Shown here piece after piece: positions 16,676-18,884 of a stretch of 44,745 nucleotides of DNA. The position numbers and the translations under genes were made by a program. The DNA comes from Candidatus Doudnabacteria bacterium. GTDB lineage: Bacteria > Patescibacteriota > Doudnabacteria > UBA920. The stretch is from assembly GCA_023245895.1 (NCBI GenBank), contig JAHFJJ010000010.1, forward strand, positions 1 through 44,745. The letters run 5' to 3'. Position 1 is the first letter of the stretch; each line of letters starts with the position of its first letter. The notes under the pieces were generated by a model, which made no database searches, was not told the origin of the DNA, and saw only the letters and a program-made list of their open reading frames with translations.

Positions 16676-16711
16676 TGTTTCAAATGTGTACATTTGTACA
16701 CATTTGAAACA
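16676..16711. promoter_or_regulatory. Operator-like palindrome, copy 1
   Basis: TGTTTCAAATGTGTACA tt TGTACACATTTGAAACA, perfect 17-bp arms; its right end supplies a possible -35 TTGAAA 17 nt before TATATT, upstream of ORF 16739. Confidence 0.85.
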
Positions 16712-16738
16712 GTTTTATATTTTTGATATATTAAAACA

Positions 16739-17410
16739 ATGGATGAAAATACAAAACATTTAAATATCGGTAAAACCTTAAGAGCTTCACGAGCGGGTGA
16801 AAGATTTAGTTTATCTGAGGAACAAATTGCAGCACTTAAACGCACGGCCGAAGTGGCTCTGGCCGTGGTAGCTGCCGCGGGCATTGCTACCATAGCTATT
16901 ACCGCGCCCAATGTTTTGCAGGCAATTGATAAACTATTTTTAAAAAAGCACCGTCGTAGATTAAATACCAGGGAAGCCAGGCAAAAAACCAGCCAGGCCT
17001 TTTTCTACTTGAAACGCTCGGGATTAATTGAGCTAAAAAAAGACGGCAACGACTGGAAAATCCTTTTAACCAGCTTAGGCAAAAATAAAATCCGTAAAAT
17101 CCAATCCGACATCCGCGTTATCCCCAAACCAAAAACCTGGAACCATAAGTGGTGGCTAATAGCCGCGGATATCCCGACAAAAAGCTACCGGCAAGGCGCG
17201 GATATGCTCCGCCGAAAACTCAAAGACCTTGGCTTCTTCCCTTTGCAACGGACGCTGTGGCTTTTCCCTTACGATCCTCGCGCAGAAATCCAGTTCATCG
17301 CCAGCCAATACAACATCTCACAATTCATAACCGCTATGGAAATAAACCGCCTGGACAAGGAAGATGAACAAAAAGCCAAAACTTACCTCCAATCCAAAAA
17401 TCTATTATAA
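16739..17410 (+). CDS. PaaX-like transcriptional regulator with Cas2-like C-terminal domain
   Basis: WKILLTSLGKNKI winged-helix-like region then WNHKWWLIAADIPTKSYRQGADMLRRKLKDLGFFPLQRTLWLFPYDPRAEIQFI. Confidence 0.72.
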   Translation: MDENTKHLNIGKTLRASRAGERFSLSEEQIAALKRTAEVALAVVAAAGIATIAITAPNVLQAIDKLFLKKHRRRLNTREARQKTSQAFFYLKRSGLIELKKDGNDWKILLTSLGKNKIRKIQSDIRVIPKPKTWNHKWWLIAADIPTKSYRQGADMLRRKLKDLGFFPLQRTLWLFPYDPRAEIQFIASQYNISQFITAMEINRLDKEDEQKAKTYLQSKNLL

Positions 17411-17445
17411 GGATGGATTTGTATGAAATCCAGATAAAATCTATT

Positions 17446-17481
17446 TGTTTCAAATGTGTACAAATGTGAACGTTTGAAACA
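17446..17481. promoter_or_regulatory. Operator-like palindrome, copy 2
   Basis: TGTTTCAAATGTGTACAAATGTGAACGTTTGAAACA; same length and outer arms as copy 1. Confidence 0.82.
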
Positions 17482-17533
17482 GTTTGAAGATTAAAGGCCT
17501 ATAAATATAGATATATGTCTTTCAAAAAGCCCC

Positions 17534-17562
17534 TTGACTTTATTTGGGTACGGGTGTATAGT
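17534..17562 (+). promoter_or_regulatory. Sigma70-type promoter
   Basis: TTGACT-N17-TATAGT; ATG of leader peptide 1 begins 10 nt after the -10 box, so the transcript would be nearly leaderless. Confidence 0.8.
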
Positions 17563-17571
17563 GGTTTCAAG

Positions 17572-17628
17572 ATGAATAATAAACAGCAATCAATCCAGAG
17601 CTTAGTCGTAGTCGTCTCCCTCACTTAG
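17572..17628 (+). CDS. Leader peptide 1: MNNKQQSIQSLVVVVSLT
   Basis: 18-codon ORF with GTC GTA GTC GTC just before an alternative-hairpin region and terminator. Confidence 0.72.
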   Translation: MNNKQQSIQSLVVVVSLT

Positions 17629-17688
17629 GGTGGCGATGTTGTAATTTCTTAAACTTACAAACCGCTCCCCTAGGGGAGCGGTTTTTTA
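17612..17688 (+). promoter_or_regulatory. Attenuator-like RNA 1
   Basis: 1:2 TCGTCTCCCT/AGGGTGGCGA (612-621/627-636, 9 of 10 pairs); 2:3 AGGGTGGCG/CGCTCCCCT (627-635/663-671, 8 of 9); 3:4 terminator ACCGCTCCCC TA GGGGAGCGGT then TTTTT. Confidence 0.72.
17661..17688 (+). terminator. Intrinsic terminator of attenuator 1
   Basis: ACCGCTCCCCTAGGGGAGCGGTTTTTT, perfect 10-bp stem. Confidence 0.9.
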
Positions 17689-17703
17689 TTTATTTAACCT
17701 TTT

Positions 17704-17760
17704 ATGCTTAATAATTTGCTCAAAATCTCCGAAGTCGTAGTAGTCGTCTCAAGCCCTTGA
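17704..17760 (+). CDS. Leader peptide 2: MLNNLLKISEVVVVVSSP
   Basis: 18-codon ORF with GTC GTA GTA GTC GTC; no evident Shine-Dalgarno. Confidence 0.65.
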   Translation: MLNNLLKISEVVVVVSSP

Positions 17761-17826
17761 GATTGGCTGCTTTGGTATAAATTCTAACCAAACATCCCAG
17801 GTCTCAAGGCCCGGGATGTTTTTTGT
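17747..17826 (+). promoter_or_regulatory. Attenuator-like RNA 2
   Basis: 1:2 TCTCAA GCCC TTGAGA (747-762); 2:3 CCTTGAGATTGG with CCAGGTCTCAAGG (755-766/797-809, one bulged A, two G-U); 3:4 AACATCCC(A)GG...CCGGGATGTT then T run. Confidence 0.7.
17791..17825 (+). terminator. Intrinsic terminator of attenuator 2
   Basis: AACATCCCAGG TCTCAAGGC CCGGGATGTTTTTTG. Confidence 0.85.
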
Positions 17827-17840
17827 TCTTTAAAAATTAT

Positions 17841-17925
17841 TTGTGAAAAGTCTCTTCGGCGCAAACAAGAAATAACCTGCCAAATGGCAGGCATACTAAC
17901 TTGTTCCGGAGATTGCTTTTCACAA
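17841..17925 (+). ncRNA. Long structured RNA upstream of tiny ORF 1
   Basis: TTGTGAAAAG/CTTTTCACAA (10 bp), TCTC/GAGA, CGG/CCG, AACAAG/CTTGTT, apical CCTGCC AAAT GGCAGG. Confidence 0.7.
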
Positions 17926-17952
17926 ACCCGTCCGAAGCGGGTGGCAAGGAGG
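17926..17952 (+). promoter_or_regulatory. Hairpin plus Shine-Dalgarno module, copy 1
   Basis: ACCCG TCCGAAG CGGGT then AAGGAGG; parallel module at 18181-18208. Confidence 0.7.
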
Positions 17953-17956
17953 ACCT

Positions 17957-18043
17957 ATGCGATTTGAACGATGTTGGAAGTGCGGCAAGTTGTCCTGCGG
18001 TGGCAGCTGTAGCCGCCGCAAGAGATACCGCCGTAGCAAGTAA
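17957..18043 (+). CDS. Tiny Cys/Arg-rich protein (28 aa) MRFERCWKCGKLSCGGSCSRRKRYRRSK
   Basis: Strong SD AAGGAGG 4 nt upstream; CxxC motif; not in ORF track because of its length. Confidence 0.68.
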   Translation: MRFERCWKCGKLSCGGSCSRRKRYRRSK

Positions 18044-18058
18044 GAGTTAGTAAAGTAA

Positions 18059-18086
18059 GCCGGCGCACTTTTGTAAAAAAGCCGGC
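18059..18086 (+). ncRNA. Post-ORF hairpin A, copy 1
   Basis: GCCGGC GCACTTTTGTAAAAAA GCCGGC. Confidence 0.7.
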
Positions 18087-18097
18087 AAAATTCTTTT

Positions 18098-18160
18098 GCG
18101 GTTCAGGCAGTTGGGGGCAACGCGCCTCCGGCAGATTTTCTGCCCTGCTTGATGGATCGC
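18098..18160 (+). ncRNA. Three-way-junction RNA B, copy 1 (63 nt)
   Basis: P1 GCGGTTC+AGGCAG / CTGCTT(GAT)GGATCGC; P2 GGGGG CAACGCG CCTCC; P3 GGCAG ATTTT CTGCC. Confidence 0.75.
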
Positions 18161-18180
18161 GAAAACGATTTTCACAACAA

Positions 18181-18208
18181 CCCCGCCCGAAGCGGGGGAA
18201 GAAGGAGG
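18181..18208 (+). promoter_or_regulatory. Hairpin plus Shine-Dalgarno module, copy 2
   Basis: CCCCGC CCGAA GCGGGG then AAGGAGG. Confidence 0.7.
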
Positions 18209-18213
18209 TACGT

Positions 18214-18447
18214 ATGCCAGTTGATGACTGGGAGAAAGCTCAGTGGTATCTGAAACATGGATACACTGGGAATGCTAGGGATGTCGTTAGGCAGGGGGTC
18301 AGAAGGCGGAACGACCCGATGTCGGAAGGAGTGGCCAGGTCAATCGTGGCCGATGCCGACAGGATCGACCGCCAAGAAGAGAGGAGGAGACCAAGCGAAA
18401 ACTTGTTCTACTGTCCTTCCTGTGACTCATTCGGCTGTAGGTGTTAG
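18214..18447 (+). CDS. Small protein (77 aa) with Cys-rich tail CPSCDSFGCRC
   Basis: Strong SD 5 nt upstream; charged body and four C-terminal Cys. Confidence 0.75.
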   Translation: MPVDDWEKAQWYLKHGYTGNARDVVRQGVRRRNDPMSEGVARSIVADADRIDRQEERRRPSENLFYCPSCDSFGCRC

Positions 18448-18470
18448 TTAGGGGAAACTCAAAAAAGTGA

Positions 18471-18498
18471 GCCGGCGCACTTTTGTAAAAAAGCCGGC
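18471..18498 (+). ncRNA. Post-ORF hairpin A, copy 2
   Basis: GCCGGC GCACTTTTGTAAAAAA GCCGGC, identical to copy 1. Confidence 0.7.
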
Positions 18499-18508
18499 AG
18501 ATTTCTTT

Positions 18509-18571
18509 GCGATTCAGGCAGTTGGAGGTAGCGCGCCTCCGGCAGATTTTCTGCCCTGCTTGATGAATCGC
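18509..18571 (+). ncRNA. Three-way-junction RNA B, copy 2 (63 nt)
   Basis: P1 GCGATTC+AGGCAG / CTGCTT(GAT)GAATCGC; P2 GGAGG TAGCGCG CCTCC; P3 GGCAG ATTTT CTGCC; all stem differences from copy 1 keep pairing. Confidence 0.78.
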
Positions 18572-18602
18572 GAAAATCCGTTTCTAAGTTAGGAGAGAGA
18601 AA

Positions 18603-18743
18603 ATGGACATTGGAGGGTTTGACAGGCCTACAAAAACGGACGCTGAGCGTGCTCGGGAACGGGCACATCAAAAAAGGAGGAGAAAGAGACGGGCGGCCGA
18701 GAAGGCTGCCAAATCTGAAACGGGGGAGGAAGGAGAAAAGTGA
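18603..18743 (+). CDS. Small highly charged protein (46 aa) MDIGGFDRPTKTDAERARERAHQKRRRKRRAAEKAAKSETGEEGEK
   Basis: ATG after TAGGAGAGAG; ends just before hairpin A copy 3. Confidence 0.68.
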   Translation: MDIGGFDRPTKTDAERARERAHQKRRRKRRAAEKAAKSETGEEGEK

Positions 18744-18766
18744 GCCGACACACTAAAAAAGTCGGC
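18744..18766 (+). ncRNA. Post-ORF hairpin A, copy 3
   Basis: GCCGAC ACACTAAAAAA GTCGGC; compensatory G-C to A-U change relative to copies 1 and 2. Confidence 0.68.
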
Positions 18767-18772
18767 ATCTCT

Positions 18773-18810
18773 GGCCGGAGAATTTACACTCTCCGGCCTT
18801 TTTTTATTTT
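18773..18810 (+). terminator. Terminator of the micro-operon
   Basis: GGCCGGAGAATTTACACTCTCCGGCC followed by TTTTTTTATTTT. Confidence 0.9.
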
Positions 18811-18848
18811 TTACAAACAAAAACCCATCTTATCAATTTTTATTAATT

Positions 18849-18884
18849 TGTTTCAAACGTGTACAAATGTGAACGTTTGAAACA
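18849..18884. promoter_or_regulatory. Operator-like palindrome, copy 3
   Basis: TGTTTCAAACGT GTACAAATGTGA ACGTTTGAAACA. Confidence 0.82.

Follow-up and report, generated by a model that had tools for sequence, protein, structure and literature searches.

A PaaX/Cas2-like gene between matching 36-bp palindromes in a Doudnabacteria genome

The window analysed here, a stretch of 44,745 nucleotides from Candidatus Doudnabacteria bacterium, is one whole contig (JAHFJJ010000010.1) of a 1.14-Mb genome (GCA_023245895.1; G000) that comprises 41 contigs and is 91% complete; all genomes compared are metagenome assemblies. Between guaA and guaB, the window carries the gene of a PaaX/Cas2-like regulator enclosed by two copies of a 36-bp palindrome, followed by an operon of very small genes (the micro-operon) and a third copy. 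Homologues of the regulator gene are common in the order, and most of those compared across the phylum are enclosed in the same manner by a palindrome pair of their own, an arrangement that looks like an undescribed gene-plus-palindrome system, possibly one that spreads its own recognition sites. Searches of the open-licence literature brought up no account of palindromes associated with PaaX/Cas2-like genes in Patescibacteria.

The palindromes and the enclosed gene

The central features of the locus are the following.

16676-16711, no strand: palindrome copy 1, the upstream bracket (U), with perfect 17-bp arms and a 2-bp centre
16739-17410, + strand: PaaX/Cas2-like regulator of 223 amino acids, with a hydrophobic segment (residues 39-57), a winged helix and a Cas2-like domain with D144
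17446-17481, no strand: palindrome copy 2, the downstream bracket (D), starting 35 bp past the regulator stop codon
18849-18884, no strand: palindrome copy 3, a solo palindrome 3' of the micro-operon terminator

The three palindromes had been placed exactly in the first-pass annotation, and they are not a product of chance: 100 dinucleotide shuffles gave 0 matches. Copies 2 and 3 share the same orientation and differ by 1 base. The remark that there was no further copy holds within the window; genome-wide, a copy 4 is present at G000:C30:24026-24061, which brings the total to four, with no multitude of unrelated copies across the genome. Copies 2-4 are nearly identical, asymmetry included. The pattern of the window palindrome, with up to 3 mismatches, was found in none of the 48 other genomes of the order.

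The naming of the regulator as PaaX/Cas2-like is borne out by a match to Pfam PaaX_M (PF20803, 'PaaX protein central Cas2-like domain'; E = 1e-12, 48.3 bits, cut-off 24), and the protein scores 31.1 bits with the PaaX equivalog TIGR02277, below the cut-off of 264.55. In an alignment of 26 homologues, W139, D144, P146, Q170 and W174 are invariant, and D144, judging from the motif, appears to occupy the position of the catalytic Asp in Cas2 nucleases. A fold search with the AlphaFold2 model (pLDDT 84.5; first 22 residues of low confidence) returned E. coli W PaaX as the only PDB match with E < 0.001 (E = 2.5e-5), along with weaker, partial matches to Cas2 proteins and further weak ones to centromere-binding winged helices, and a PDB sequence search with the family profile gave no match. 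The hydrophobic segment (19 residues, mean hydropathy 2.15) lies N-terminal to the winged helix, is conserved together with an APN motif in the homologue alignment and may be a membrane helix or a dimerisation helix. With the form TGTTTC-N24-GAAACA, the window dyad shares its wide-dyad design with the operator of E. coli PaaX, TGATTC-N27-GAATCA, a protein that represses its own promoter (PMC9493321).

Private palindrome pairs and solo copies across the order

Genomes of the order often contain 2-9 PaaX/Cas2-like homologues, and the flanks of most of these carry two matching, near-perfect palindromes of ~36 bp, one before the start codon and one after the stop codon. The palindrome sequence differs gene by gene, each homologue or paralogue having a private pair; regulator homologues that lack the window's palindrome, which the first-pass annotation would have counted against its proposal, thus exist, but most of them have palindromes of their own instead. 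When the 633 open reading frames (ORFs) of G000 were ranked by a joint U/D palindrome score, PaaX/Cas2-like genes came out at ranks 1, 2, 3, 4 and 7. A bracket score of at least 50, the threshold used (controls: mean 37.7, 95th percentile 44), was reached by 54 of 70 homologues in a first set and by 38 of 40 further paralogues in a second set that had been fetched for another purpose. The palindromes hug the gene, with medians of 18 bp from the end of U to the start codon and 9.5 bp from the stop codon to the start of D, and 27 of the 29 rows in the window's well-supported clade (tree of the first set) are bracketed. Many bracketed relatives are proteins of 170-190 amino acids with a much shorter N-terminus. 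Longer PaaX_M proteins of other Patescibacteria (236-258 amino acids; L131, L136, L143, L146, L150 and L159) are without bracket palindromes and cluster on the tree, with partly weak support. One bracketed protein of the source genome (L037:4567-5130, on G000:C15) passes the NCBI Cas2 cut-off (25.2 versus 24.5 bits).

Differences between U and D of the same gene tend to be symmetric. Double changes at mirror positions numbered 65 in the first set (permuted mean 23.6, maximum 39) and 76 in the second (permuted mean 27.8, maximum 46), with 34 and 55, respectively, keeping both copies paired. Palindromicity was part of the criterion by which U and D were chosen, which inflates the effect size somewhat, although the excess over permutation stays large despite this selection bias. 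Such an excess of mirror changes suggests that self-complementarity itself is under selection or is generated by a copying process; were the palindromes read as half-sites only, a change at a tolerant position would need no change of its mirror partner.

Copies of the palindromes also occur away from the genes. In a scan of G000 rebuilt from stretches (1.13 Mb, ~2 kb of gaps), most paralogues had two bracket copies plus 1-3 solo copies, and shuffled palindromes had almost no matches; many further solo palindromes with a CGGCCG-type core are present. Solo copies are located behind stop codons, between convergent genes or in frame inside mutM, miaA, rluD and murB. The murB gene of G000 contains an 11-residue in-frame palindromic insert, G001 has a related but different palindrome, and G002, G003, G005, G006 and G007 have the empty site. 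In-frame palindromic inserts missing from orthologues are the mark by which Rickettsia palindromic elements (RPEs) are recognised, and the murB insert is of this kind.

The mutM gene offers the broadest comparison. Of 29 genomes of the order, 14 have a palindrome at one and the same site in a conserved stretch of this gene, the sequences differing between genomes, and the rest of mutM holds nothing comparable. Six of the 14 palindromes best match a bracket of their own genome, against ~1 expected; the G015 copy matches an upstream bracket of its own genome without a difference over 36 bp, and the G011 copy matches a downstream bracket of its own genome in the same way over 32 bp. All 14 genomes with the mutM palindrome have at least 2 PaaX genes, and the 10 scored genomes with 0-1 lack the palindrome (Fisher p = 0.0002, kinship ignored). 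Within one genus, G017 and G020, with 2 PaaX genes each, have the palindrome, and G010, with 0, is without it.

Other repeats were noticed in passing. Perfect palindrome families without a known partner in G000 include AACAAGGGGAATCCTTGCG (41 bp, ~12 copies), TTTCCGCCAGAGGCGGATCC (~12) and TACTATTCGCGCGAATAGTA (~10), with example sites at C3:31569, C20:64065 and C31:2425; C2:388 and C27:3712; and C38:7655 and C39:12556. Peptides of the PLPLGEGRGEG / PHPNPLPGGEG type in guaA (window 15411-15440), adenylosuccinate synthetase (window 21703-23202) and murB of L235 seem to represent a further repeat that has entered several housekeeping genes in frame.

The block between guaA and guaB

The remaining features of the block and its flanks are listed below.

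15002-16648, + strand: guaA, left flank, with guaB directly next in relatives
16727-16732, + strand: candidate -10 (TATATT) of the regulator gene, by eye, 17 bp from the -35 within copy 1
17534-17562, + strand: candidate micro-operon promoter (TTGACT-N17-TATAGT), by eye
17957-18043, + strand: Cys/Arg-rich micro-ORF of 28 amino acids, translation MRFERCWKCGKLSCGGSCSRRKRYRRSK, no Pfam match
18052-18165, + strand: structured 114-nt element, first copy, 92% identical to 18464-18576
18214-18447, + strand: small ORF of the micro-operon, 77 amino acids, no known family
18464-18576, + strand: structured element, second copy
18603-18743, + strand: small ORF of the micro-operon, 46 amino acids, no known family
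19140-20219, - strand: guaB, right flank

By eye, copy 1 contains the candidate -35 of the regulator gene (TTGAAA, 16704-16709), whose transcript from the candidate -10 would be nearly leaderless, and the end of copy 2 lies 52 bp from the candidate micro-operon promoter. This agrees with the arrangement first described, with copy 1 over the -35, copy 2 ~50 bp before a promoter and copy 3 after the terminator.

A gap of ~100 bp separates the convergent genes guaA and guaB in five of seven genus relatives; the remaining two have other inserts between these genes. Because the two genes are so close in five of the seven, acquisition by this lineage is the best reading of the 2.2-kb block of palindrome, regulator, palindrome, micro-operon and palindrome. 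The edges of the block cannot be fixed by comparison with the relatives because the intergenic DNA is too diverged. As to the hallmarks of insertion sequences, no near-identical copies were present among the fetched loci and no target duplications were seen, the edges not being fixable. The first-pass annotation had offered the palindromes alternatively as boundaries of a mobile cassette: the absence of the block between guaA and guaB in relatives supports this in part, whereas copies 1 and 2 bracket the regulator gene itself, and no precise edge, duplicated target or recent movement could be demonstrated.

The micro-operon (17560-18810) consists of three tiny ORFs and two strongly structured elements, the stretches holding these having values of about -55 to -68 kcal/mol. 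Rfam gave no match for the structured elements, the DNA searched contained no relative of them, and nothing related at the DNA level to the micro-operon as a whole was present in the other loci searched. Copy 4 lies 3 bp from the stop codon of relA, at the end of a three-gene operon (L005:5220-6963, on G000:C30) between ndk and relA, which encodes two small apparent membrane proteins and a 268-residue protein, none with a Pfam match. This insert is absent in the relatives read, ndk seeming, by eye, to lie close after relA in G001. A conserved palindrome site at the relA 3' end was rejected, as only G000 has it. The regulatory link between regulator and micro-operon that had been proposed from the palindromes found no support, since the micro-operon is without relatives in other loci and copy 4 lies behind an unrelated operon; a conserved regulon joining the two was rejected on the former ground. 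Both solo copies, 3 and 4, follow the last gene of an inserted operon and in this respect resemble a cassette system, with cargo beside palindromes seen in the window family only.

Interpretation and comparison with known systems

The 36-bp palindromes are very probably cognate binding sites of the PaaX/Cas2-like protein that they bracket, as suggested by the PaaX-operator geometry, the private pairs of the homologues and the position of copy 1 over the likely promoter; the operator-like role initially assigned to them is retained in this form. Gene and flanking sites likely constitute a compact, gained cassette. To the combined reading, that of cognate sites in a compact cassette akin to REP-RAYT but with a PaaX/Cas2-like protein, we assign a probability of roughly 0.52. 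The bracket and its recurrence, the private sequences with their solo matches, symmetric change, own-genome matching, co-occurrence and absence from relatives form the same set of observations that REP-RAYT gave (PMC2817692), and we infer from this that the PaaX/Cas2-like protein may copy, move or convert its sites. Under this reading, the gene with its two sites would be one member of a Patescibacteria-wide cassette family in which each paralogue has its own site. The protein would probably bind as a dimer, contacting two outer half-sites, as in the PaaX-type wide dyad, and the core, and would repress its own promoter via the upstream site. The scattered solo sites, mainly behind genes or in frame within them, would turn over with the resident protein, the Cas2-like domain possibly being used to copy, move or convert palindromes, and in the window, the bracketed regulator, the micro-operon and the third palindrome would have been gained between guaA and guaB. 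We propose only tentatively that this amounts to a mobile palindrome system, in which the protein recognises its own 36-bp palindrome and, via the Cas2-like domain, copies or converts sites, including those in coding sequence. If true, short palindromic repeats would here be driven by a Cas2-fold protein without Cas1, a possible model for the union of repeat and Cas2.

Several observations weigh against the REP-RAYT-like cassette. In the first homologue set, about one gene in four, chiefly from the longer subfamily (236-258 amino acids), is without a bracket, one of the unbracketed genes being cut by a contig end. Solo copies number 0-3 per family in G000, which is low, unlike REPs. There is no recent transposition, no near-identical element occurring in two places, and the paralogues are old and at most ~50% identical. 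U and D are direct in 16 cases, inverted in 5 and equal in 17; direct orientation is not universal, and strict direct repeats of the target-duplication type were rejected on account of this mixture. In mutM, the palindrome leaves the gene length unchanged (0 or +2 amino acids) and therefore did not arise there through a mere insertion, the codons of the helix show some self-complementarity on their own, and 8 of the 14 palindromes have their best match elsewhere than in a fetched bracket of their own genome, some paralogues not having been fetched. Finally, we know of no nuclease or recombinase activity in PaaX proteins.

The chief rival, which we regard as possible though doubtful, is a plain transcription factor for which the palindromes are operators only, with self-repression by looping between U and D, a small regulon of solo sites and normal co-evolution of protein and site. 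Operator geometry combined with the known autorepression by PaaX, the overlap of copy 1 with the likely promoter, the PaaX fold and the few sites per family would all fit, but solo sites lie mostly behind genes, between convergent genes and in coding sequence rather than at promoters, and a downstream site hugging the stop codon in ~90 divergent homologues would be unexpected. Nor would such a factor readily explain the gained insert in murB or the symmetric changes in spacer bases that are not shared, which point to self-complementarity being selected or generated. Integron-like cassettes, with the palindromes as recombination sites and a unit of palindrome, regulator-palindrome and operon-palindrome from which the operon with its 3' palindrome is excised and re-inserted, are improbable: the array of three same-family sites in the window, the shared asymmetry of copies 2-4, copy 4 behind a further operon that the relatives lack between ndk and relA, and downstream sites close behind stop codons are of the expected kind, but the cargo is confined to the window family, the solo sites of other families (mutM, murB, miaA, rluD) are without cargo, and no tyrosine recombinase or attC-like feature turned up in the cassette, no test having been aimed at either. 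Chromosome or membrane tethering, whereby a membrane-linked protein would gather a few palindromic sites in the manner of a centromere or nucleoid factor, is very improbable in spite of the conserved hydrophobic segment and the weak fold matches to centromere-binding winged helices, given that one genome may have as many as nine paralogues whose sites differ, that many bracketed relatives have a much shorter N-terminus and that the segment may be a dimerisation helix. A viral origin (no relative in viral contigs) and a classical insertion sequence (no near-identical copies among the fetched loci) were rejected.

Among known systems, CRISPR adaptation by Cas1-Cas2, with its partly palindromic repeats of ~36 bp, is similar in the Cas2-like fold, the repeat length and the insert between repeats, but here there is no array, no spacers and no Cas1; Cas1 (PF01867) had no match in the 91% complete G000, and the CRISPR reading was rejected for lack of it. 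E. coli PaaX shares the winged helix with a Cas2-like domain and the wide-dyad operator, is the best fold match and is autorepressing, a feature compared here by operator geometry, whereas the bracketed protein is shorter, has no phenylacetate context, scores far below the PaaX equivalog cut-off and has sites on both sides of its gene. One bracketed homologue passing the NCBI Cas2 cut-off is a warning that the bracketed family, not CRISPR or aromatic catabolism, may lie behind some of the 'Cas2' or 'PaaX' annotations in Patescibacteria. RPEs likewise are palindromic DNA in frame within housekeeping genes, but those described in PMC10969869 are ~150 bp long, with no partner protein carrying the same palindrome named, whereas here the cognate gene carries the palindrome; for REPs of the CGTC type, including some RPEs, no dedicated transposase is known (PMC3733652).

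The closest likeness is to REP-RAYT, where the gene has a palindromic repeat on either side, gene and repeats evolve together while palindromicity is kept, and solo repeats correlate with the gene and are in part inside genes (PMC2817692, PMC3733652). The PaaX gene likewise lies between two matching palindromes, and the co-evolution, the correlation of solo repeats with the gene and the in-gene repeats are common to both. The bracketed protein, however, is PaaX/Cas2-like (Pfam PaaX_M only) and not a Y1 HUH transposase, the palindromes are near-perfect 36-bp dyads with no real loop and no GTAG head, ending in TGTTTC/GAAACA and others, and the many solo repeats of REP-RAYT are not seen. An ordinary REP-RAYT system coexists in G000 and uses different repeats: the only Y1_Tnp (Y1/RAYT-like) gene of the genome, G000:C15:9468-9881, is flanked by the GTAG palindromes GTAGCGTGCC...GGCACGCTAC, with similar palindromes at C1:5857, C5:10611, C26:66095 and C31:25844. 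Mobilisation of the PaaX palindromes by this RAYT was rejected, its repeats being a different, GTAG-tagged family. It is decades since short palindromic repeats such as REPs and RPEs became known inside or between genes. Here, gene architecture, co-variation, matches within the same genome and co-occurrence link an unrelated protein family to palindromic repeats phylum-wide, and the partner and function of such repeats become testable.

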